A stretch of 64,000 nt of DNA, from assembly GCA_012719345.1 (NCBI GenBank), contig JAAYAN010000232.1, positions 1 through 64,000 on the forward strand, in the 5' to 3' direction. This DNA comes from Ignavibacteria bacterium. GTDB lineage: Bacteria; Bacteroidota; Ignavibacteria; Ignavibacteriales; Melioribacteraceae. This document shows, piece by piece, positions 14,000-27,840 of this stretch (position 1 is its first letter; each line of letters opens with the position of its first letter). Below the pieces are notes generated by a model. It did not search any database. It was not told the DNA's origin and worked only from the letters and a program-made list of their open reading frames with translations. A program made the translations under genes and the position numbers.

Positions 14000-14860
14000 T
14001 TAAAATCGTATCTGCAAATTTAACTCAGGATGATAATCAATTACAAATCCGTAGTTTGTTTTTTCGAGACTTACTTTTGCTGAAACCGATTTATTGTATC
14101 TGCTTGCCGACCATACGGCATCTGCAGCGCTTAAAATATGATTTGCTACTACTATTATTACAGCTGTTGAAGCAATATTATAATAATCATTTGCTTTGCC
14201 GCGCATATTGCTGTATTCTTCAAATCTTTGAGTTACTTTATCATTATAATAGTCGAAAGAACCGTTTACTCCGCCGGGAAAATCGTTCCAGCCTACATTA
14301 AACTGTTTATATTTCCCGATCATTTCGTAGTATTGCTGGTCGCCTTTGGGAGCAAGTTTGTGGGAATAATATCTTCCTTCCAAGGTTCTTCCGACTTCTT
14401 CTTCCATTTCGTTAAGCACATTCCAATTAACTCCGCTGCTAAAATCGTACTTTGCAGGATTTTGAAAATTCTGTTCAAACCTGTTTTTTGTCCATTGTGC
14501 ATATTGTTGCACATTCCAATGTTGATCGGCATAATCTTCGAACTCGGAAGTTTTATCATCACCTTTATTGTTATATATAATCGCTCCCGATACAGCTGCA
14601 ACTTCCACCGCAAAAAATATGGCAGCTTTAAGATAGCTTTCCGTATAAAATTCTCCTGCCCCCGGAACAGCAAACGAGAGAACACCTGCAAGAAATCCTG
14701 ATTTTTTTTGAACCGGCTGCAAAGTATTTTCGGGAATATTATCTTGATCATTTTCTAATCCGACAATTTTTGAATCCACCGATAACACCCCGGTAAAATT
14801 ATTATCATTCTGCTGGGCAAAAATCGAAAGTGTAAAAAACAAGATTAATAATTTTTTCAT
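14000..14860 (-). CDS. DUF5683-like secreted or membrane-associated protein
   Basis: A short signal peptide (residues 1-15, FFTLSIFAQ) precedes a hydrophobic segment with the pattern SFAVPGAGEFYTESYLKAAIF, which is the hallmark of DUF5683 and related envelope proteins. The middle is polar and Tyr/Asn/Gln rich, and a second hydrophobic stretch (STAVIIVVANHILSAADAVW) lies near 240. The end is beta-like (KVSLEKTNYGFVIDYHPELNLQIRF). Function is unknown. It sits in the porU operon, 11 bases from the metallopeptidase gene. Confidence 0.7.
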   Translation of the reverse strand: MKKLLILFFTLSIFAQQNDNNFTGVLSVDSKIVGLENDQDNIPENTLQPVQKKSGFLAGVLSFAVPGAGEFYTESYLKAAIFFAVEVAAVSGAIIYNNKGDDKTSEFEDYADQHWNVQQYAQWTKNRFEQNFQNPAKYDFSSGVNWNVLNEMEEEVGRTLEGRYYSHKLAPKGDQQYYEMIGKYKQFNVGWNDFPGGVNGSFDYYNDKVTQRFEEYSNMRGKANDYYNIASTAVIIVVANHILSAADAVWSASRYNKSVSAKVSLEKTNYGFVIDYHPELNLQIRF

Positions 14861-14871
14861 AATCTTTCCGT

Positions 14872-17800
14872 TTATAAACTAAAATCAAATAATATTCCGC
14901 CGTAAAACTGCCATTCTTTACCGTATTTAACAGTTTCTCTTCTTACTACCTTTTCTACAGTATCAAATGAATAAGCTGCATTAAAAAACAAAGTTGTCGG
15001 GAAAAGATAAAACGAATTCATTTGGATTCTTAGTTCTGCGCCTGCGCCTTTTTTAAATTTATTTAATGAAGGCATTTTCCCGTTCCATGCATTTCCTATG
15101 TCGCCGTAAACAGACATAAAAATCTTATCTATATATATATGTCCTAACCGCGAATCAATATTCCTGTACAACGGAAACCGGTACGATAGATTAAACCAGC
15201 CGAGTTCATTTCCCGAAATTGCATAAAACGGATAGGCTTTCATTCCTATTAAACCGCCCAGGTAAAAATCGAAGAAATCATCTACCGTTGGGCCGAAAAT
15301 TGTTGCTGCCCGTAATGTTGCATTCAGTGTATGCCCTTTCCCTAAACTGAAATAATTCTTCTGAAGAAAATCGAGTTTGTGAAAATCGAAATCGGTATAC
15401 TTTCCTATATATCCCACACTTTCGTCGTATTCATATTCCTGTGTGGAATTAAACTTATTCATTTCATAATTATAAGTAATTTCTGTTTCCATCCCGATCG
15501 GGTTAATATCAGAGTCGATATACGGCATCTCTGCAGAGAAAGTATATTTTATCTGAAAATTACTTCCTTTTAAATAGACATCATTAAAAGCAGGACTGTT
15601 CAAGTATTTTTCTTCAACAAAAGAGTAATAGTTAAAACTTCCAACTGTAGAAGTATAACGGCTGTAAATATACCTGAATTCTATGTTGCTGTTTTCTATA
15701 AATAGTCTGTGTTTTGCAGCAATATCAAATTCAAATAAATTATAAGCTACTTCAGTTTTTAATTGGTAATCTGCAATAGCAGTTCCGCTTGTGGAATCTA
15801 CATTGAACATAATATCGGCATCTGCCTTACGGCTGATACTGTAAAGTTCAAGTGAAAGTTCAGGTTTAAGCCCGAGGTTGTAAATTAAAGGAAGTTTGTT
15901 TCTGTAATTAAACTGAAGGAACAAATCCCTTTCCATACGGGAATTAATCGAACCTCCTGCAAAAATATCCATTCGGTTAAGCATATCGGAAGACATTAAA
16001 TAAACGCCGGGTTTAAATTTCTCGAGGGTTGTATTTCCTGTGCTGTAATTATCATAACGGATAAAAGGGACAGCCATAATTTTTGTAAACGAACCTGAAT
16101 ATCGTTTTTTTTCATAATCAGGGGTTTCTCTGTCGTTATAGTTTTTGAGATAATCTATATTGAAATTTGCAATATCGCCTTTGGCTTTTTCATCAGTAAA
16201 AATTACTCCGCCGGATTGATAAGAATATTCCGGTGATACCTGAACCAGATTTTCATTTTTCAAATAACATAACTTGTAACCTGAAGAAGTATAACCGGCA
16301 TAAGCTATATTTCCATACGAATCTGTTGCAGGCATAAATGCACCGCCCGTAACATTTGTAATTTGTGTTTCTTCACCGGTTTCTAAATCTTTTCTGTAAA
16401 TATTAAATATTCCGGTTTTATCAGATGAATAGTAAAACTTACCGTCTTTGCCGAATACTGGATTTCTTTCTTCATATTTTTCATTTAATACAGCAGTCAG
16501 ATTTGTACCATTTGTATCAATTTTATAAATATCCTGCCCGTTTCCTTCAGCAAAACCGAAAACTATAAAGGAGTCATCGGGTGAAAAACGCGGATTAAAA
16601 ACCTGCTCGCCATTTTCAAAAACTGTAATTCTTCTGAAATTTTTGCCATCAATATTTACCATCCCAATATTTGTTGTACCGTCTTTCTGGTAAACAAACA
16701 CAATATTTTTACCGTCATTCGAAACAAATGAATTATTCGCGCGAAGTCCGAAAGTAATTCTTGTCTCTTCTTCAGTTTCAGTATCGTAAACATATAAATC
16801 GTGAATATTTACCCAGCGTGGATTGTCGTCATCAAGTTTAGAATAAACGATTTTTTTTGTACCCGGTATTAAACTTGCTGTTGTTTTAACTTTTGGTGAT
16901 ATAAGTTTTTCTTCACCGGATTTTAAATTGTATTCATATAATGAAGTAAGACTTAAATAATCCATTCCTTTATTCGAAAGGTAAAATACTTTGCTTCCGT
17001 CTTCGGTAAATACAGGATAAAAATTGCCGAAACCTTCCTTTCCTATTTGCTCGCCTTCCACTAAATTATTACGCAATCCGGAAGTTCTTGCATTATAATC
17101 TTTTGTTATAAAGTCTTTCCATTCATCGTAAATTTCATCGCCATCTTTACCAAGAACATCTTTAAAAGCAGCATCAACAGTAAAATTTGTAAGCTTCCCA
17201 AGTTTTTCGGTTATGAGCCTTAATTTATCTTCACCGTATATTCCCGAAATATAGCGGGTTAAAGCAAAACCGGAATTGTAAACAGATTCGTTGCCAAGAC
17301 TTGTTTTTCCGAATACCCCCATTTCATCCCAGGTAAGCATTTTGTCATCAAGAGCATAACATCGTAAAATCATATCGCGGTGCGAATCCCAATTTTCGTA
17401 ATTTAATTCTTTTCGTTGATATTGCGCAGTTCCTTCGGCAAACCAAGCAGGCATATTTACAGTAGCTACAGGATACGATGCAACAAAATTAGGGAATCCG
17501 TAAAGAATATCAGGACGGCGTTTATCTTCGTAATTAAGGAATTGAAGATAAATTGCAGGAATTGATCTGCTTATTTTCATTGCCGCTTGTATTTGTACCA
17601 TATGAGTAAATTCGTGTGTTATTACATTGCGAAGCCAGTTATGCGTGCCCCGCAAATCAAAATCCAGCGCAGATGCCCATATTTCAATTTTGTTGTCGAA
17701 AAAGTATGTTGCACCGTTGCTGTAATCGTCAATATCTTTTATTACATAATGAACTTTATCAGGTTCGTACTGATAAAGAGATGTAATAGGTCCCCATACT

Positions 17801-17979
17801 TCATCGGCAATTTTTGCAACAACACGGGCAGTTCTTTCAGCTTCTTCGTGGTAATGCACTTCCACATTTTTACCTTTTATGGTGTACCAATCGTATTCGG
17901 GATGATATTCATTAAACTGGGCAAATATTTTATAAGAACTGAATAAACTCAGCAGAACAAAAAGATGTATTTTTTTCAT
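14872..17979 (-). CDS. Outer-membrane MA-type metallopeptidase with TolB-like propeller and beta-barrel
   Basis: A signal peptide (1-20) is followed by a peptidase domain with HEFTHMVQ (His122, Glu123, His126), matching the HExxH zinc site of gluzincin MA peptidases. Residues about 330-610 carry repeats such as GSKVFYLSNKG, DSFIVFGFAEGNGQDIYKID and DGKFYYSSDKTGIFNIYR, a WD40/TolB-like propeller. The last 400 residues are beta-rich with alternating aromatic residues and end in GGILFDFSL, an outer-membrane barrel terminus. It probably acts at the cell surface on an unknown substrate. The operon position suggests a link to type IX secretion, but this is inference. Confidence 0.85.
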   Translation of the reverse strand: MKKIHLFVLLSLFSSYKIFAQFNEYHPEYDWYTIKGKNVEVHYHEEAERTARVVAKIADEVWGPITSLYQYEPDKVHYVIKDIDDYSNGATYFFDNKIEIWASALDFDLRGTHNWLRNVITHEFTHMVQIQAAMKISRSIPAIYLQFLNYEDKRRPDILYGFPNFVASYPVATVNMPAWFAEGTAQYQRKELNYENWDSHRDMILRCYALDDKMLTWDEMGVFGKTSLGNESVYNSGFALTRYISGIYGEDKLRLITEKLGKLTNFTVDAAFKDVLGKDGDEIYDEWKDFITKDYNARTSGLRNNLVEGEQIGKEGFGNFYPVFTEDGSKVFYLSNKGMDYLSLTSLYEYNLKSGEEKLISPKVKTTASLIPGTKKIVYSKLDDDNPRWVNIHDLYVYDTETEEETRITFGLRANNSFVSNDGKNIVFVYQKDGTTNIGMVNIDGKNFRRITVFENGEQVFNPRFSPDDSFIVFGFAEGNGQDIYKIDTNGTNLTAVLNEKYEERNPVFGKDGKFYYSSDKTGIFNIYRKDLETGEETQITNVTGGAFMPATDSYGNIAYAGYTSSGYKLCYLKNENLVQVSPEYSYQSGGVIFTDEKAKGDIANFNIDYLKNYNDRETPDYEKKRYSGSFTKIMAVPFIRYDNYSTGNTTLEKFKPGVYLMSSDMLNRMDIFAGGSINSRMERDLFLQFNYRNKLPLIYNLGLKPELSLELYSISRKADADIMFNVDSTSGTAIADYQLKTEVAYNLFEFDIAAKHRLFIENSNIEFRYIYSRYTSTVGSFNYYSFVEEKYLNSPAFNDVYLKGSNFQIKYTFSAEMPYIDSDINPIGMETEITYNYEMNKFNSTQEYEYDESVGYIGKYTDFDFHKLDFLQKNYFSLGKGHTLNATLRAATIFGPTVDDFFDFYLGGLIGMKAYPFYAISGNELGWFNLSYRFPLYRNIDSRLGHIYIDKIFMSVYGDIGNAWNGKMPSLNKFKKGAGAELRIQMNSFYLFPTTLFFNAAYSFDTVEKVVRRETVKYGKEWQFYGGILFDFSL

Positions 17980-17990
17980 TTTATAACAGA

Positions 17991-20771
17991 TTATTTAACA
18001 ATAGCTATTTTAATTATTTTTTCGGCAGATTTACCGGAAACGGATTCTGCTTTAATTCGTGCAAGATAAACCCCGCTTTGAATATTCGAAACATTCCATA
18101 TAGTTTCGTTATCAAGTCCGCCTGAAGCATTATCCTCAAGCTCGGCAACTAAAGTGCCGGAAATATCCAATATCTTAATATTTACTCTGGAATCTTCCGA
18201 AACGAAATATCGGATATTCGTTTCGCTGCCGTAAACCGGATTTGGCCAGTTATATGCAGATTCTTCCGGAAAATATTGTGTTTTAAGGTTTTGGAAAGAA
18301 GCTTCAGGAACATCAGAAGTGTTACCGTAATTAGCAAATTCGGATGTCCAGCCAAGTTTGCTAGGTATATTCATTATTTCCCAACGCGAAAGCTTTCCTT
18401 CTTCCGTAACTGCATTTAAATATAAAGAATTGTTACTGAAAGATAATTCGGGATACGATCCGGGTTTTCCGCCGAGACTAACGCTGTAATCATCTAAAAT
18501 ATTTCCATCTTTGCCTGATACTGAAATGATTCTTCCGTCCTCGGTTATAGAAATAATATCTTCCATGCCGTCATTATTTAAATCGGCAGACAATAAATAC
18601 TTGCTAAACTCTTGTTCCTGAGAATCACTATACGGAAAATTATCTGCCATTACACCTTGGCTGTTAACTGCATTAAGTTTTTCGTTCGAAGTATAAACGA
18701 AATAATTTTCGCCGTCATTTTTTATATCGGATAAGATAAAGTTTTTTATATCTAAATTTTCCGAACTACTGATATTATATAATTCAGAAGGATATTGACT
18801 TAAATATGCAACCGAAATATTCAGATCTTCAAGTTTAATTGTAAATTCAACAAAGCTATTTGAATTGACCTCAGAAACTATTTTAAAATCTGAATTATTT
18901 GATGAAATTAAAACCGGCTTATTAATTAATGTTTGTTCAACTTCCAACTCCGATGAAAGAATTTGAGCCTCTTTAATCTGAACAACTTTAACCTTTTTAC
19001 CAATAAATCCTGCAAAAATAATATTGTCTGTATCAATCAACATCACCGGTCTGAACTCTGTAAAATTTTCAGAAATTAAAACAGGTGAATTTTGGCCTGT
19101 TTTGCTGTAAAGTGAAGTACCTGCAACATAGAAAGTATGTAACGGATTTAACGGTGAAACAAAAGAATATTTAACAGGCTGTTCAGAACCCAAATCCTGC
19201 CGTAAAGCAAGCTTCAATTTCTCACTTCCGAATTTCACGGAGAAGCTCATTTTCTGTCCGATAGAAGAAAAATCCGAAATTGTTACAAGGCTCGAAGTTC
19301 CGTCGTTTGCATCGGTGTTAGGTTTTGAATCCGGACTGAAAACGTTTTTATAAAACTTTGAGGGATTACCTTTATACCAAGTATCCTGCCGGTTGCCTTC
19401 CAGAATTACATTATCACCGAAAACTGTTTTAAGTTCTTCGCCGATATCATAAATACCGTCGGCTTCAACAAGTTTTACTGCACGGTTATCTTTAAGGTTA
19501 ATTTTATTTTCTTCAATATTCTGCCGAATTATCTTTTCATCAATATGCCAGATTAAAATCCCCACATCCTGAAAACTATGTTTAAGAGGATCGTAATCAT
19601 CATTAACCCCTGGTAAAGCCCAGTCAGCATCGTCAACATCAACTATAACACCTCTTAATGAATCGGTATTGTAGCTGTAAAAGCCTACAGTATCCTTTAA
19701 GAATTTTTTTGTATAAACATTATTCCCGTCTTTAATAGTAACTGTAATGCCATCTTTATTTAAATCGCGGGTTCTTCTTTCAACCAGAAAATATTCATCC
19801 GAATTGATTGGTATTTTAACAATGGAGGTATCTCCCGCTCCGGCAATGGCCATCGGTGTAATGTTTATTTTATGTTCTCCCGGATTTACAACTACCGGTT
19901 GAACCCATCCCAGTTCTACCTTTTCCCAAGCAGAAGGTTCAGGTAAAAAAGTTCCCGAAAAACCAAAAATCGATTGTCCGTCCATCAGCCCGAATCGTCC
20001 GATTGAACTTTTCCCTGTTTCGGTATCAAAAAGATCGGGAAGTCCCATATGGCTGGCAATACTTGATACAATTAAACCGTTAATTGAAAGTTCAAGCAGA
20101 GCTGAACCTGTAAGTCCATCAATCTCGCGGCTTTCTGTTTCAGGGATAATCATCGAATTTTTAACTCGTTTATTATTAACAGGAAATCCTTGAAATTCTG
20201 CTCCAAAAGTGTTTTTTAAAGTTTTTTCACTAATATATATCGAAGGAATATCGCGTGAAGAAATAATGCTTCCCGGAGTGATTACATCGCCGCCTGTGCC
20301 GGCGTGAAATATTACAAACAAGTCATATTCCGTAAGATCGGTATTTACCAATAAAGGAGCGGCAAGCGTCCATACTTCCTGGGCAAGATTGCTTAACTGC
20401 CCCGGTGTTTCGCTTTTATTCAGCGAAGTATAATTACGCATTGTTTTTGAAACAGTAATTATCTGGTTAAATACCGTGTAATTAACTTCCAGCTTCCCGT
20501 TGGAAGCCTTATTGAAATAATTCTTTGCAAAAAGCAGATGATTTTCAAAATACAAAGCATCGTGCGGAAGCGGATCGAGTATTTTTTTTCCGTAATCTTT
20601 GGAATATATTGTACCAAATTTACCATTTCCGGCAGTAGCATTATCCTTGTCTTCCTGAAAATCGACCATTACGGCAAAGATATTTATCTCTGATGGTGCC
20701 TCCGGAATAAAACCTTGAGATAATATTATTCCAGTAAAAACTGTGTATAGGAAAAACGATTTTAATTTCAT
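17991..20771 (-). CDS. M6-like secreted protein with degenerate zinc motif and T9SS sorting domain
   Basis: After a signal peptide the first 400 residues follow the M6 (immune inhibitor A-like) fold: AKNYFNKASNGKLEVNY, YDLFVIFHAGTGGD, and MGLPDLFDTETG then GRFGLMDG. Where active members have HExxH before GLPDLYD, this protein reads SSIAS (236-240), so both His and the Glu are gone. It is probably not a protease. A region with FG-GAP-like DLNNDGMEDIISI (near 745) follows. The last 85 residues (YNWPNPVYGSETNIRY to AEKIIKIAIVK) are a T9SS type A sorting domain. It is encoded right after porV, with 3 bases between them. Confidence 0.88.
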   Translation of the reverse strand: MKLKSFFLYTVFTGIILSQGFIPEAPSEINIFAVMVDFQEDKDNATAGNGKFGTIYSKDYGKKILDPLPHDALYFENHLLFAKNYFNKASNGKLEVNYTVFNQIITVSKTMRNYTSLNKSETPGQLSNLAQEVWTLAAPLLVNTDLTEYDLFVIFHAGTGGDVITPGSIISSRDIPSIYISEKTLKNTFGAEFQGFPVNNKRVKNSMIIPETESREIDGLTGSALLELSINGLIVSSIASHMGLPDLFDTETGKSSIGRFGLMDGQSIFGFSGTFLPEPSAWEKVELGWVQPVVVNPGEHKINITPMAIAGAGDTSIVKIPINSDEYFLVERRTRDLNKDGITVTIKDGNNVYTKKFLKDTVGFYSYNTDSLRGVIVDVDDADWALPGVNDDYDPLKHSFQDVGILIWHIDEKIIRQNIEENKINLKDNRAVKLVEADGIYDIGEELKTVFGDNVILEGNRQDTWYKGNPSKFYKNVFSPDSKPNTDANDGTSSLVTISDFSSIGQKMSFSVKFGSEKLKLALRQDLGSEQPVKYSFVSPLNPLHTFYVAGTSLYSKTGQNSPVLISENFTEFRPVMLIDTDNIIFAGFIGKKVKVVQIKEAQILSSELEVEQTLINKPVLISSNNSDFKIVSEVNSNSFVEFTIKLEDLNISVAYLSQYPSELYNISSSENLDIKNFILSDIKNDGENYFVYTSNEKLNAVNSQGVMADNFPYSDSQEQEFSKYLLSADLNNDGMEDIISITEDGRIISVSGKDGNILDDYSVSLGGKPGSYPELSFSNNSLYLNAVTEEGKLSRWEIMNIPSKLGWTSEFANYGNTSDVPEASFQNLKTQYFPEESAYNWPNPVYGSETNIRYFVSEDSRVNIKILDISGTLVAELEDNASGGLDNETIWNVSNIQSGVYLARIKAESVSGKSAEKIIKIAIVK

Positions 20772-20774
20772 TTT

Positions 20775-21980
20775 TTAATATCCTCGCGGAAATCCTTCCT
20801 GACTTTTCGGACTTGCATCCCAGTTAATCAATAGTGTAAATCTCATAGTATCCGAAAGCGGATGATTATCGCCTCCTTCAAAAACGTCTGTTGTAATATA
20901 TCCGAAATCAAATCCGTAAACATCGTACCGGATACCTGCTCCGAAAGTTACAAATTTACGATTTCCGTAACTTGGATCTTCATAGAAAAATCCAGCTCTG
21001 AGTGCAAATTGGAAATCCATCGGATCGCCGTAAACATATTCAATACCCATAGAAGTATTTATATCACGCAATTCTTCTGAAAACGATTGATCGCCCCAGG
21101 CTGTAAAAATTGCCTCGTAAAATTCTTTACGGTTTTTAGTATCGTATGTATTAGTTACTTTTCCTGTTGAATCTGTATCAGTAATCGGTTTGCCACGGTC
21201 AACAAGAAGTTTACCAAAATCTATTGTATATGTAAGCGAATTGAACTCGTCTTCATATAATCTGAATGCCATACCGAGTTTAAATTTTGTAGGAATCGGG
21301 TCTGCCTGTGCTTGATCGATATATGTAAGTTTAGGACCAAGATTACTTAAATTAATACCCAAACTGAATTTATTACTTAAATCGATACCGGCAAATGGAA
21401 TCTCCAGCTGTTCCGGACGCCACATAGTTGCTATGTCGAAACTGACAGAAGTAGCTTTACCCGAACCTTTTTCATTTTCTGTAGGTTTATCCGAAAGGTT
21501 ACTGTGAATTACTCTGAAATTGAAACCTAAACCCCAATCATTATGAATTTTTGTGGCATATCCAACAGTCAAAGCTCCGTCGAACGCTTTAAATGTACCA
21601 AGTTCATTTCCTGCAGAACTTGTTCTTACAAATGTACCGAAATTCATATAAGTAACGCTTGCTGTAATGTGTCCGTCAAGCGATTCAACATATCCGCGAT
21701 ATGCTAAATAATCGTAAAACAAATCATCTAAATTGAATTGAGGCAGCCAGTTACTGTGCGTAATAGAAACTTCGGAACCGGTAAGAAATGCAATACCTGC
21801 CGGATTCCAAAAAACTGCTGCGGCATTATCTGCCAAGCCAGTACCCGATTCACCCAAACCTCCGGCTCTGGAATCCGGGGCAAGCTGAAGAAAAGGAACC
21901 GCTGCTTCGCCTTGGGCAAATATCCCTTTAGCCGATATGAAAAATAAAAACAAAAAAATCCATTTAATTCTGCTGCTCAT
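20775..21980 (-). CDS. porV: PorV/PorQ-family outer-membrane protein (T9SS)
   Basis: The mature N-terminus (AAVPFLQLAPDSRAGGLGESGTG, then DNAAAVFWNPAGIAFL) is the signature of PorV/PorQ proteins, which are FadL-like 14-strand barrels. PorV carries secreted cargo from the translocon to the PorU attachment complex. The C-terminal strand pattern (FGAGIRYDVYGFDFGY, RFTLLINW) fits an outer-membrane barrel. The frame opens at 22007, but the ATG at 21980 is preferred because GGAGG lies six bases upstream and the signal peptide then starts properly. It follows porU directly, as in known T9SS loci. Confidence 0.92.
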   Translation of the reverse strand: MSSRIKWIFLFLFFISAKGIFAQGEAAVPFLQLAPDSRAGGLGESGTGLADNAAAVFWNPAGIAFLTGSEVSITHSNWLPQFNLDDLFYDYLAYRGYVESLDGHITASVTYMNFGTFVRTSSAGNELGTFKAFDGALTVGYATKIHNDWGLGFNFRVIHSNLSDKPTENEKGSGKATSVSFDIATMWRPEQLEIPFAGIDLSNKFSLGINLSNLGPKLTYIDQAQADPIPTKFKLGMAFRLYEDEFNSLTYTIDFGKLLVDRGKPITDTDSTGKVTNTYDTKNRKEFYEAIFTAWGDQSFSEELRDINTSMGIEYVYGDPMDFQFALRAGFFYEDPSYGNRKFVTFGAGIRYDVYGFDFGYITTDVFEGGDNHPLSDTMRFTLLINWDASPKSQEGFPRGY

Positions 21981-22016
21981 TTCATTCCTCCAAAATATTA
22001 TTCGCATTACTTATTT

Positions 22017-25000
22017 TTACCTAATTACTGCAAGTTTGCCCAAAACGCTTTTTGTTTCGTTTTGAGATCCGGTTTTAATAATTAACTTGTAAAGATACGT
22101 TCCGTTCGCCAGAAGATCACCGTCTTCGTCCCGTCCGTCCCAATCTATTTTCACAAATTTATCTAATACCTGATTTTGTTCAATCTCTTTTATAAGCCTT
22201 CCTGCTATAGTATATATTTTTATTTTTACATCAATAAAATCGCTTATGTTATGTTGAAAAGTAAATAAGGTTTTGTCCGAGAAAGGATTTGGATAATTAT
22301 AGACATCTTTAATTGCAAGCGATTCATTGCTAACAACTGTAAAATTTACATCTTCAATTGTTAAATTATTAAAAACATCCCAAGCTTTCACACTCAGTGT
22401 GTGATTTCCTACCGGCATATCAATAAAATTATATTCTATTTTACCGCTTTTCCCGCCGGAATTTAGATCTCCAGAAAAGTAATTGGAAAGGTCTATTGAA
22501 TTTTTAATATCATTATTTAATGTTGCTTCAATTTTATGTCCTATTCCTAATCCTGTTGTGTTAAGTCCGGTTTCATCTGATAAATCGACAATAAGTTTAA
22601 AATTTTGATTAACCAAATATGCATTTTCAAATTTTGTATCATCAAAGTAAATATTTACATCGGGTCCTTTTTTGTCATCTGTTGCCGTCGAATCGGATCC
22701 GCCTATTATTACATTTTTCGTAAACCCAATACCGTCAGTGCTTTCGTTATAAACATAAACAACCATTTTACCATTGCTGTTGGTGTATGAAATATCTTTT
22801 GGGACAATAAAATCTGCTTCGTAAAACCCATCAACAACATTAACTCTGCCCTTAAATATTGCTCCCCCTTCCTTCACCATTTTTATACCCATAAAATCTG
22901 GTATTGTAATTGTTGTGCGGGCATCATAAACAGAGATATAGGCTTCACCGCTAAAATTTTGATCAATATTTCCGAATTTATCAATTACTTTTCCTTTGAT
23001 TTTAGAATGGCTGAGTGCTTTAAGTTGAACATTGCTGCTAAGTGAACTTCCATTTAACGAATCTATTTCAACAGGCATAACCGGAATATTAAGTCTTAGA
23101 TAAGGATCGCATAATAAATGAAAAACGCTCGTATTAATCAAGCTCGAATTTATATTTGCATTTTTTGCTTGAACTGAAGCCTGACCTAAAGTTACCCGGT
23201 TATAATCAATATCTCTCTGATTTAGTAAAGTAGTAAAAAAACTTTTATTCAATGCCGCATTGTAACTTGAGTAAGCTTTTCTTGTTGCTGCAAAAACACC
23301 AACAGCGCCTGTATTTTCTTTAAGCAGCATCATTTCAGCGCCGCTTGTTTCATCGGTAAAATCAAATTTGGCAAAATCGCACGTAGCTGCAACAAGGAAA
23401 AATAGTTTATCATTATTAAATTCAGGGATAGTCTTAGAGCGGGTTAATACATACTCGTGTGTCCATACATCAGGACTTCCGTGACCTACAAAATTCATTA
23501 TTAATGTACCATCATTAACTGCATTAATAATAGCTTTTGTTACTTCGGGACGTCTTTTGCCAGCTCCTGTTTCTTCTAAAGGATATGTTGCCAAATAGAT
23601 TTTGTTTATTTCCATAAAGTCCGGAATATTTCGAGATAAGTCTTCACATTGCGTTGTATGTTCATCTTCACTTGAAGATTCAAATGTGTAATTGTCATCA
23701 GCAACTAAAGATATCTTGTTTCTCCAAATGCCGCTGGTAATATCCTTTTCGTAATTGATAATTTTCGATATAAGATTATCAGCTTCCTCAGCAGAATTTA
23801 TAGGGAATCTCCCTATTGTCAAGTCTAAAAACTTATCATTCCCTGCAACTTTTACATAATAATCGTCCGTTCCGTACGATGATAATTCGTACAAGGTTTC
23901 AATAGTCTGGTAAGTTGGGATAAAATTGTTATTCTTACCTTCAGCATTAAAATAATCATATGTTCCGTCACCCATTAGTAAAACATGTTTCGGTTTAACA
24001 GACCAATTTTCGAAAGCATATCTTATAAAATTGCGAATAGCCGAAGGATCTCTCTGACCGCAACCGAATTCATTAAATATTTCTTCTACCAGAACAACCT
24101 TTGAAGTAACAGGATATTTGTTGGAATTGCTTCCCCTGTATGTTTTTAATCTCTGCGATTGAGTTTCGAATTCAGCAGGAGTGATAATAATATATTCTGC
24201 TCCGGATGTTTCAGATTTTAAATATGAATTTTTTACCTTTTCAGCAGTACCGGGCGACCTGTACTTAGCAGTAGATGTTCCAAAATATTTCGAAATTACT
24301 CCTTCAGTTTCGTTTGCAGTAAAAGAAAAATCTCCCCCGCTTACATCAGCAGATGATATTTCCATAACATTAGCATAATCGGTAATATCATAAACACGGA
24401 TTTCTGTTGTATTAGTAAAATTAGTAAGTTTATATTTTACTGCAGCAGTTGTATCTTTTCCAAAAACAAAAACAGAATCTCCTGAAGAAGAGAGATCTCG
24501 CTTATATTGAATTTCAAAATAATCAAGATATCCGTTCAATTCACTATTCGATTCACAAGCAATTCTAAGCATGCTTCTGTTTGAAGGCAGGTTCATTGAA
24601 GAAGTAAAACTAAACGTTCCTGCTATTCCGATTTTATACTTACCATTAATGCTTGCACTTGTACTTATAATTGTACCTGTTTTAATAAGCGATTCATTTT
24701 CGTACATCTTCAGGTTTAAAGTTCCCTTTTGGCTTGCGTTTACCATTTGAACAGAATAATTTATGGAGGTTCCCGGAATCCTGCCAGAAAGTGTATTGAT
24801 AAATGTCCTTTGCGAATTTGCACTCGTAAAGTCTTCTCCCAAATACATCCTTCCCGATTTGCCAATATTTCTGTTATCAATCTCGTAATATACTAAATTA
24901 TTCGTCACGGTTTGCTCATAAAAACCATCTGTATCGACTGATGATTTCACCTGCATCCGTTTCCCCTTGTTTCCCCCCGAGGTTATAAAATAATAATTAC

Positions 25001-25988
25001 TTTTAGAAAAATGGTTATAAACTCTCTTTAAATTTCCATTGCTCAATGGGTCAACAAAATTTGTTGTTCTTGCATAAAACAATATGTAATCATTATCATT
25101 AAATACACCGTCTTCTTCACCAACTACTTTTATTGCAATTTCATTAAAGTTTTCTGAATCCAGATCAACATCTTCCGGAAGCTGATAACCTCCGTTGTTA
25201 AATATTTTTATTGTACGCGGATCAACATCTGCAGGTATACCGTAAGATTGAAGCATATTTTTAGAAATTTTATAAATCCCTTCTGTGCCCACAGTGAACT
25301 TATACCAATTTCCTGAAGATAAATCCGCCGATGCATTTATTTTATTATATGATTTCTTTGCAGTGACTTTCCCCCAATTTTTTGCTGCATCACAATTAAT
25401 TATACCCGAAATAATAAGATCATCACCCGGAATCTTTACTCCGGAACCGGAACCTGAGAAAACTACTTCGAAAATAATTTCTTTTAAAATTGATATTTTC
25501 CCTGAATTATCAAGCGTCATTGGATAAATTTTAACCTGTTGAACAGGAACAGAAGCAGCATAACCGAAATTGCCGAACATTATTGTTTCGGGATAAATAA
25601 AATTATTATAGTTTTCATTTTTAATATATCTTTCTTCTAAAAGACCTTCATTATTTGATAACTCAGGAACCGGTGCCGGCATTCCGTTGATTTGCGAACG
25701 TTTTTCCGAAATGATTTTAATCTGACTCCCATATTCAGAAGGCACCCCCAGATTCAAAATTTTAACCGGTATTTCGGGCATTCCGGTTTCTCCGGCGTTA
25801 TCTATGCTTGTCCCCGAAAAAACCAGCCTTACAAAATTATCTCTAATGCCTTTTAAATTAAGCGTATCGGTAGATTCTGGAATATACTGTATAACAATGC
25901 GGCTTTGGTCCGATGAGATTATTTTAATATCCTGAGAAAAGCTAAAACTGGATATAAAAAAAAGAATTATAAAAATTTTTCGCTTCAT
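22017..25988 (-). CDS. porU: Type IX secretion sortase PorU (C25 gingipain family)
   Basis: The 1323-residue protein has a signal peptide, an N-terminal prodomain-like region and a C25 cysteine peptidase domain. The catalytic dyad is visible as His836 (NFVGHGSPDVW) and Cys870 (AATCDFAKFDF), with the family sequence LLMGDGTYDYF upstream. The C-terminus (YNYPNPFSDKTLF to LGKLAVIR) resembles a sorting domain. PorU removes sorting domains from T9SS cargo at the surface and links cargo to lipopolysaccharide. The start at 25988 has GGAG seven bases upstream; an upstream TTG at 26015 gives a longer, less likely form. Confidence 0.95.
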   Translation of the reverse strand: MKRKIFIILFFISSFSFSQDIKIISSDQSRIVIQYIPESTDTLNLKGIRDNFVRLVFSGTSIDNAGETGMPEIPVKILNLGVPSEYGSQIKIISEKRSQINGMPAPVPELSNNEGLLEERYIKNENYNNFIYPETIMFGNFGYAASVPVQQVKIYPMTLDNSGKISILKEIIFEVVFSGSGSGVKIPGDDLIISGIINCDAAKNWGKVTAKKSYNKINASADLSSGNWYKFTVGTEGIYKISKNMLQSYGIPADVDPRTIKIFNNGGYQLPEDVDLDSENFNEIAIKVVGEEDGVFNDNDYILFYARTTNFVDPLSNGNLKRVYNHFSKSNYYFITSGGNKGKRMQVKSSVDTDGFYEQTVTNNLVYYEIDNRNIGKSGRMYLGEDFTSANSQRTFINTLSGRIPGTSINYSVQMVNASQKGTLNLKMYENESLIKTGTIISTSASINGKYKIGIAGTFSFTSSMNLPSNRSMLRIACESNSELNGYLDYFEIQYKRDLSSSGDSVFVFGKDTTAAVKYKLTNFTNTTEIRVYDITDYANVMEISSADVSGGDFSFTANETEGVISKYFGTSTAKYRSPGTAEKVKNSYLKSETSGAEYIIITPAEFETQSQRLKTYRGSNSNKYPVTSKVVLVEEIFNEFGCGQRDPSAIRNFIRYAFENWSVKPKHVLLMGDGTYDYFNAEGKNNNFIPTYQTIETLYELSSYGTDDYYVKVAGNDKFLDLTIGRFPINSAEEADNLISKIINYEKDITSGIWRNKISLVADDNYTFESSSEDEHTTQCEDLSRNIPDFMEINKIYLATYPLEETGAGKRRPEVTKAIINAVNDGTLIMNFVGHGSPDVWTHEYVLTRSKTIPEFNNDKLFFLVAATCDFAKFDFTDETSGAEMMLLKENTGAVGVFAATRKAYSSYNAALNKSFFTTLLNQRDIDYNRVTLGQASVQAKNANINSSLINTSVFHLLCDPYLRLNIPVMPVEIDSLNGSSLSSNVQLKALSHSKIKGKVIDKFGNIDQNFSGEAYISVYDARTTITIPDFMGIKMVKEGGAIFKGRVNVVDGFYEADFIVPKDISYTNSNGKMVVYVYNESTDGIGFTKNVIIGGSDSTATDDKKGPDVNIYFDDTKFENAYLVNQNFKLIVDLSDETGLNTTGLGIGHKIEATLNNDIKNSIDLSNYFSGDLNSGGKSGKIEYNFIDMPVGNHTLSVKAWDVFNNLTIEDVNFTVVSNESLAIKDVYNYPNPFSDKTLFTFQHNISDFIDVKIKIYTIAGRLIKEIEQNQVLDKFVKIDWDGRDEDGDLLANGTYLYKLIIKTGSQNETKSVLGKLAVIR

Positions 25989-26205
25989 TATATAACTCCA
26001 ATCAGTTTGCTTCAACTAATTTCGTTTTCCGAATTTTGAGTAACGTTTCAATAATGTAGCAAATATTTCTATAACTCTTTCCTTTTTTGTGCCAAAAATA
26101 ACTAAGAATTTATAAAGATGTCAAGTCATTTTAATTTTAGTGTAAAAATAATTGAATCTGTTTTACTAGATTTCAGATATAAACTTATTCTTGCTACTAA
26201 AATTT

Positions 26206-26259: not shown

Positions 26260-27840
26260 ATGAAAAGAGCGGCACTGTTTATTGCACTTTTATCAACTTT
26301 TTTGTTATCACAGGAAAATTCGAATAATAAGTTCGAAAACTTAAGCAAAACAAATGCAGATTGGGAACAGCTTAATCATCCGGTTTCAGGTGCAGGTTAT
26401 TGTTACGCATCCTGGGCAACTGATTTAAATACATTATATCTTTGCAACGGATCAAGAGCCGATATTCACAAATCTACAGACGGAGGCAGCAACTGGAATA
26501 CCTATACTTTAGAAAATTCAGAGGGTGTTTTGGGTGGCATAATGGATATTTTTTTTATAAGCCCCGAAAACGGTTATTTAGTAACATCAGATAACTATTT
26601 TGCAAAAACAACAGATGCCGGAGTAAATTGGGATACTTTATCTTTGTCATCTGTTGGTGTCAATAATTGCAGCTCAGTCCAATTCACTAATCTTTTAACC
26701 GGTTATATTCTTACACAAACTCAGATTGTTAAAACTACCGACGGAGGCGATAGCTGGTCAGTGATAAAAGATAACTTCAGTTCAATAATACTAACTGGGC
26801 TTTATTTTACAGATTCTGATAACGGATATATATGCGGTTTTAACCCGGAAGGAGAGATTCACAAGACTACTGACGGAGGGGACACCTGGGCTACCGCCAC
26901 TTATAGTCCCACTCCTATTTACTCAATCCATTTTTATGATGCCAACAACGGAGTTGCGTGCGGAGAATTTGGAACCTTGCTGAAAACAACAAATGCCGGA
27001 GCTGATTGGATTGACTGCAGCAAACCTGGAGAGGGAAGAGATTTAAATAAAATCAAATACATCGCGAACGGGGAAATATTCTGTTGCGGTTATGATGGAG
27101 CAGCTTTACTTTCTCTTAACAACGGACTTAGCTGGTCAAATGAAAGTTTTGCTGATGAAACAGACGTCTTTTTTACTTTTGCTAATTTCGGTGAACAAGT
27201 TTGGGCAATAAAAGATCAAGACTTCTTATTTAAAAACACTTCGCCGTTGCCGGTGGAATTAAATTCATTTTCAGCAAATGTTAACGGTTCTTCAGTTGAA
27301 CTTGTATGGCAGACTGTTTCGGAACATAACAATTACGGTTTCGAGGTTGAACGGAGAATGGGAACCGGAGACCGAAAAATGGAATGGGAAGTTCTCGGTT
27401 TTATTGCAGGCGCAGGAAATTCGAACAGCCCAAAAGAATATTCGTTCAGCGACAATAATCTTACTCTTACTTCTTACTCATACTCTTATAGATTAAAGCA
27501 AATTGACCTTGACGGTAAGTTCACCTATTCCAAAGAAATTTCCGTTGAGCAGTTGCTTCTACCAACAGAATTTTCACTTTCACAGAATTATCCGAATCCT
27601 TTTAATCCTTCTACAGTGATCAAATACCAATTACCAATGAATGGTTTTGTCAGTTTGAAAATTTACGATATTTTAGGGAGTGAAATAGCAACCCTTGTAA
27701 GCGAGCAAAAACCTGCTGGTACGTACGAAGTGAAATTCGATGCATCTGCCCTTACATCAGGGGTATATGTTTACAGATTATCTTCATCAAGCGAAGCAGG
27801 AGATTTTTCACAAGCCAAGAAATTAACTTTAATAAAATAA
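26260..27840 (+). CDS. T9SS-secreted protein with Ycf48-like (BNR-type) repeats
   Basis: A signal peptide (1-17) is followed by at least five repeats of the form TTDGGDSW or STDGGSNW, each with an upstream beta pattern (for example GYLVTSDNYFAKTTDAGVNW), which build a beta-propeller of the Ycf48/sialidase-BNR type. A fibronectin-like segment (PVELNSFSANVNGSSVELVW, about 330-430) leads to the T9SS sorting domain beginning FSLSQNYPNPFNPSTVIKYQ and ending KKLTLIK. It is therefore a predicted surface or secreted protein. GGAGA sits four bases before the ATG. Its function is unknown; the photosystem role of Ycf48 does not apply. Confidence 0.9.
   Translation: MKRAALFIALLSTFLLSQENSNNKFENLSKTNADWEQLNHPVSGAGYCYASWATDLNTLYLCNGSRADIHKSTDGGSNWNTYTLENSEGVLGGIMDIFFISPENGYLVTSDNYFAKTTDAGVNWDTLSLSSVGVNNCSSVQFTNLLTGYILTQTQIVKTTDGGDSWSVIKDNFSSIILTGLYFTDSDNGYICGFNPEGEIHKTTDGGDTWATATYSPTPIYSIHFYDANNGVACGEFGTLLKTTNAGADWIDCSKPGEGRDLNKIKYIANGEIFCCGYDGAALLSLNNGLSWSNESFADETDVFFTFANFGEQVWAIKDQDFLFKNTSPLPVELNSFSANVNGSSVELVWQTVSEHNNYGFEVERRMGTGDRKMEWEVLGFIAGAGNSNSPKEYSFSDNNLTLTSYSYSYRLKQIDLDGKFTYSKEISVEQLLLPTEFSLSQNYPNPFNPSTVIKYQLPMNGFVSLKIYDILGSEIATLVSEQKPAGTYEVKFDASALTSGVYVYRLSSSSEAGDFSQAKKLTLIK

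Follow-up and report, generated by a model that had tools for sequence, protein, structure and literature searches.

A family-wide inactivated M6-like protease encoded beside porV is tied in its distribution to a putative outer-membrane metallopeptidase and is independent of the type IX sortase PorU

The protein encoded directly downstream of porV in the 64,000-nucleotide stretch of Ignavibacteria DNA analyzed here (the window) is a 926-residue, inactive M6-like protein of the type IX secretion system (T9SS; 17991–20771, minus strand). For this product we use the label M6i, and for the neighboring protein encoded at 14872–17979 the label MA. The best reading of our data is that the partner of M6i is MA and not the sortase PorU; a physical contact between the two, and its role, are what we infer from this. 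We regard M6i as a conserved pseudoprotease that belongs, alongside PorV and MA, to an accessory T9SS module and acts there as its non-catalytic subunit at the surface, and we assign this reading a probability of roughly 55%. The M6i–MA tie and the PorU independence come from the present analysis; our literature searches, which covered subscription journals thinly, found neither the partnership nor the joint losses nor the independence from PorU. An accessory, sortase-independent T9SS module is indicated in 152 of the 395 sampled genomes of the phylum Bacteroidota. It combines a dead protease and a putative outer-membrane protein in which the protease motif is intact, and the named but unexplained family NF052323 gains a specific, testable partner.

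An M6 domain without its catalytic motif

The open reading frame begins with an ATG, and its product scores 896.8 bits against NF052323 (curated cut-off 600), which makes it a member of the family that NCBIfam calls 'T9SS-dependent M6-like inactivated metalloprotease'. The dead protease itself is thus already a named family, and the name gives neither a function nor a partner. With the same thin coverage of subscription journals, literature searches retrieved no study of the NF052323 family and no paper combining 'M6 family metalloprotease' with 'type IX secretion'. In alignments with homologues and paralogues, the position of the HExxH motif is occupied by SSIAS (residues 236–240; 20052–20066, minus strand), residues 231–246 reading NGLIVSSIASHMGLPD. 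The alignment with active M6 paralogues is ungapped and places S236, S237, and S240 opposite the H, E, and H of the motif, and D246 is what we take to be the would-be third zinc ligand of M6. The M6 flanks GLPDLFD and LMDG are retained on either side, and a type A T9SS sorting domain follows at residues 842–921 (18009–18248, minus strand), with 37.0 bits for TIGR04183 (cut-off 23) and 38.2 bits for PF18962 (cut-off 27). A preliminary description made from the sequence had claimed the change of HExxH to SSIAS, the kept surroundings, and the sorting domain, and all three were borne out by the translated reading frame, the paralogue alignment, and the family scores. With the active M6 peptidases (TIGR03296; InhA-type structures 4yu5 and 4yu6), M6i shares the GLPD and LM flanks, the E(N/R)R, HxD, and ADG motifs and, in the predicted structure, the fold (Z 22). 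It differs from them in the HExxH, which is replaced in all M6i members, and in its TIGR03296 score of 75.4 bits, under the cut-off of 110.8.

The AlphaFold2 model of M6i (54 sequences; mean pLDDT 90.4) is, like that of MA, a single-chain prediction. VIA-align placed residues 24–516 (19224–20702, minus strand) on the M6 peptidase zymogen 4yu5 with a Z of 22.1, an rmsd of 3.5, and 370 aligned residues, and it assigned residues 517–806 (18354–19223, minus strand) as a predicted beta-propeller, residues 517–802 matching beta-propellers at Z up to about 17.5. A single-sequence search of the PDB with M6i gave no match, and a profile search returned propeller chains and, weakly, the C-terminal domain of PorZ (5m11, E 0.047). 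Foldseek on the whole model listed mostly propeller rows with low TM-scores; the M6 domain was resolved by VIA-align.

NF052323 was found over its cut-off in 146 of the 395 genomes in a phylum-wide search, and we fetched 106 loci for genus coverage rather than from every M6i genome, which together with the window gave 107 M6i proteins. None of these 107 has HExxH at the aligned motif and, when 80 further loci are added, the motif is absent from all 187 rows, both at the site and elsewhere in the protein. One of the 187 rows is truncated at the site, and the two locus sets have genomes in common, so that 187 is not a tally of independent cases. The first motif position is A in 138, S in 32, G in 12, and N in 4 rows, and the last is S in 160, N in 25, and G and T in one each. 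A control search with TIGR03296 in 34 genomes led to 30 loci, its best matches: 14 of these were M6i, none with HExxH, and the other 16 were M6-domain proteins, some of them weak TIGR03296 matches, all of which have HExxH (16/16). Judged from the aligned sequences, loss of the catalytic motif is common to the whole M6i family. The homologues, encoded beside porV in nearly every locus, share it (187/187 rows), and an intact HExxH in the same position, which had been named beforehand as an observation that would argue against a conserved non-enzymatic role, occurs in none of the 187 sequences. As HExxH is absent from all 187 aligned homologues, SSIAS is not a sequencing error, and this shared loss together with a dN/dS of 0.04–0.07 rules out both such an error and a decaying pseudogene.

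These dN/dS values were obtained from ten pairs for which dS could be used, in a listing limited to the six closest pairs of each genus; pairs lacking a dS were omitted, and several of the dS values are saturated. Purifying selection on M6i is strong. Mean pairwise identity among 106 M6i sequences (one short sequence omitted) is 44% in the M6 domain and 70% in residues 228–265 around the dead motif, compared to 20% in the propeller and 41% in the sorting domain. From this profile and the dN/dS values it follows that selection keeps the dead domain, and chiefly its former cleft. N231 and D264 occur in every M6i sequence; in five active paralogues, position 231 is V, I, or a gap, and position 264 is A or N. 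One could therefore think of a new catalytic activity in a remodeled cleft, for which the strong conservation of the cleft and the two residues fixed in M6i and differing in active M6 would speak. However, the replaced positions vary between A, S, G, and N and between S, N, T, M, and Q, which is unlike a new catalytic set, and the conservation is equally compatible with binding, so that we consider a new activity highly improbable. Pseudopeptidases are described as generally acting via protein–protein contacts, sometimes regulating active relatives (PMC11266112).

The porV neighborhood and the predicted architecture of MA

Upstream of M6i lie the genes of the T9SS shuttle PorV (20775–22007, minus strand; NF033710 265.1 bits, cut-off 250) and, upstream of porV, the sortase PorU (22017–26015, minus strand; NF033707 967.1 bits, cut-off 420). 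The PorV of the window also matches the FadL family, though below threshold (27.7 bits, cut-off 29.7). MA follows downstream, and after it comes a gene for a DUF5683 protein (14000–14860, minus strand; PF18935 27.1 bits, cut-off 26.7). The porU, porV, M6i, and MA genes all run in one direction and are separated by 9, 3, and 11 bp, and no terminator-like site was predicted in these gaps (9 such sites were predicted overall, versus 12.7 expected by chance). The claimed position between porV and the gene of an MA-type peptidase is therefore correct, with porV upstream and MA downstream. The wording 'inside the porUV operon' holds as to adjacency and should read directly downstream of porU–porV in the same codirectional gene run. 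Divergent from porU, a 526-residue reading frame (26260–27840, plus strand) ends in a region that resembles a sorting domain and matches the C-terminus of M6i (E 1e-4), and the contig also has a match to the N-terminal part of the translocon protein SprA (SprA_N) at a distance of about 48 kb from M6i, just past the window (68298–69563, minus strand).

The neighborhood is highly conserved. In all 106 fetched loci with both genes (window included), M6i lies directly beside porV and in the same direction, the sole locus of this set without porV having its best PorV on another contig (L114 of genome G137), and in the second set they are adjacent in 76 of 76 loci, four loci being without one of the two genes. 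The other pairs of the first set are adjacent and codirectional in 90 of 91 (porU–porV), 88 of 92 (M6i–MA), and 89 of 89 cases (MA–DUF5683), and in about 15 of the 107 loci MA does not adjoin M6i. As M6i is dead family-wide, under strong purifying selection, and adjacent to porV in nearly every locus, it probably has a conserved function in the surface secretion apparatus that is not enzymatic. The DUF5683 gene keeps to MA in three of seven loci in which MA is unlinked from M6i (L281, L282, and L284), and it keeps to porV in three of 20 loci from genomes without M6i and MA (L228, L230, and L243).

MA has 1035 residues, and sequence families together with the structure model point to a metallopeptidase domain, a TolB-like propeller, and a BamA-like barrel. 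Its HEFTH at residues 122–126 (17602–17616, minus strand) belongs to a motif retained as HExxH in all 92 MA proteins, as is the downstream glutamate E182 (92/92), and by these two features, which are features of the sequence, MA fits the Peptidase MA clan. PF13485 was matched in 28 of 31 members; the MA of the window reaches 25.0 bits, under the cut-off of 32.4. In the model (31 sequences; mean pLDDT 84.5), the predicted propeller spans about residues 305–580 (Z about 26), and the predicted outer-membrane barrel at about residues 635–1031 (14887–16077, minus strand) matches BamA chains at Z of about 21–23, for example 8xnb with Z 22.8 and 315 aligned residues. No Omp85 family was found by sequence in the MA of the window, nor among the Pfam matches of the 31 members (E up to 0.001), and the Omp85-type placement of MA is therefore a prediction based on fold. 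The closest parallel in this respect is given by the WD40-Omp85 proteins, in which a TolB-like propeller stands ahead of an Omp85-type barrel (PMC4104836), as it would in MA according to the model. MA has a peptidase domain in addition, whereas the word 'peptidase' does not occur in the available part of that text.

Co-occurrence with MA and independence from PorU

An alignment search with MA matched 152 of the 395 phylum genomes at E up to 1e-100, and at the same threshold, which admits a few M6i below the curated NF052323 cut-off, M6i was found in the identical 152 genomes, neither protein occurring alone in any. The genomes are related, and this match is therefore far from 152 independent events, though it is without exception. 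In an 80-genome sample picked by M6i and PorU status (42 with and 38 without M6i), MA orthologues of more than 1000 bits were present in 42 of 42 and 0 of 38 genomes, respectively, and any match to SprA or to PorV was counted, for each, in 42 of 42 and 36 of 38. For comparison, PorU and PorZ, which are known partners, differ in their presence in one of the 80 genomes. Linkage alone does not explain the co-distribution: in 18 of 21 genomes checked for linkage they lie on different contigs, although three of the 18 resemble contig breaks, and in one single-contig genome (G005) the distance is about 860 kb. In another genome (G180) MA is divergent and adjoins a reading frame with a SprA match. 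Both genes are absent and porV is kept in four genomes of genus g103, in two of which a DUF5683 gene stands beside porV, and one of the four (G227) has only a distant propeller match of 117.5 bits to MA. Both are likewise absent, with porU–porV kept, in two genomes of genus g104. Clear recent joint losses number just two. Taken together, the co-distribution suggests that M6i and MA operate as one device.

A one-to-one distribution would be no less compatible with a factor that serves one client than with a complex, and as the site of MA is intact, M6i might mainly be a client that MA cuts, folds, or releases and that has its task elsewhere on the surface. We think this rather unlikely, since conservation in M6i peaks in the former cleft and not in a linker or terminus, which suggests binding by M6i itself, and since the adjacency to porV would be left unexplained. 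M6i could also be ordinary T9SS cargo, for example an adhesin derived from a retired protease, that came to lie beside porV by chance: its type A sorting domain is normal, its own genome has 80 matches to TIGR04183, and its fast-evolving propeller (20% identity) is cargo-like. Such a chance placement is unlikely, as the adjacency to porV extends across 26 sampled families, and as ordinary cargo would not account for the distribution and the losses shared with MA.

The tie to the sortase is a different matter. Sixteen genomes, all of family f32, have M6i and no PorU over the cut-off. Fourteen of them were in the 80-genome sample, two fragmented assemblies being left out, and all 14 have SprA and PorV, none has PorZ over the cut-off (a weaker match was seen in one), and each has 5–32 sorting-domain matches. 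M6i and MA therefore stay with the shuttle and the translocon where sortase and PorZ are absent. Across the sample, PorU is present in 28 of 42 genomes with and 26 of 38 without M6i, and PorZ in 28 of 42 and 25 of 38, rates that reflect how the sample was chosen. The distribution of M6i does not follow PorU, unlike that of PorZ, and we conclude that the M6i–MA pair is independent of the sortase. Of the proposal that the dead protease is a structural or binding part of the surface secretion complex, one part stands, since M6i is dead family-wide, strongly selected, and encoded beside porV in nearly all loci; the link to the sortase has to be given up, since 16 PorU-less genomes keep M6i.

This bears on the idea that M6i is a subunit of the sortase and attachment complex that helps PorU to process cargo in the manner of PorZ. 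According to the accessible parts of the literature, PorZ is a non-catalytic T9SS surface protein with a propeller and a sorting domain that is tied to an outer-membrane partner (PMC8545088; PMC5562754). M6i resembles it in the propeller, the sorting domain, and the apparent lack of catalysis, and its gene is near porU–porV in most loci. However, PorZ has no M6 domain and tracks PorU with one disagreement in 80 genomes, which M6i does not, and the 14 PorU-less M6i genomes that were analyzed are also without PorZ over the cut-off. In addition, PorZ coexists with M6i in the genome of the window and in 28 of the 42 sampled M6i genomes, and PorU is found in 26 of the 38 genomes chosen for lacking M6i. 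We consider a sortase subunit quite unlikely, and by the same coexistence, M6i as a substitute for a missing PorZ was rejected. The PorU-less lineages raise the question of how cargo is anchored or released by the T9SS there. A T9SS without recognizable sortase was seen in family f32 (loci L040–L044, L046, L047, L049, and L050, from genera g103, g112, g96, and g167).

A candidate surface module with PorV

In the module that we favor, M6i would leave the cell through SprA via its sorting domain, PorV would hold it at the cell surface, and it would dock on or near MA. The dead M6 cleft may then bind a protein or peptide, either cargo or a part of MA, and M6i could in this way present substrate to the MA protease or restrain it. 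The weak point of this arrangement is topology. Domains that precede an Omp85-type barrel are usually periplasmic, and a periplasmic peptidase domain of MA would demand another geometry for a contact with mature M6i, which should be outside.

Type A sorting domains have PorV as their shuttle, and cargo of type B is often encoded beside a shuttle of its own (PMC12618676). The BAM complex of F. johnsoniae contains an Omp85 barrel, a FadL-like barrel, and lipoproteins as its surface subunits, and no T9SS component co-purified with it (PMC12611786). By a parallel of our own, its Omp85 barrel, FadL-like barrel, and extracellular cover might correspond to MA, PorV, and M6i, respectively, with the difference that its surface subunits are lipoproteins and not T9SS cargo, whereas M6i carries a sorting domain. 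One may speculate, and we give the idea little credence, that a second BAM-like machine of the outer membrane, reserved for T9SS products, is made up of M6i, PorV, and MA: MA would supply an Omp85-type barrel and a protease of its own, PorV a FadL-type barrel, and M6i, delivered by the T9SS, a pseudoprotease lid on the outside. Such a machine would receive, check, or release cargo with sorting domains and would be the cargo device remaining in lineages that lost PorU and PorZ. As for the shuttle, matches to the PorV model number 6–24 per genome in the M6i genomes with PorU and 1–3 in those without it (80-genome sample), that is, the shuttle-like family shrinks along with the sortase.
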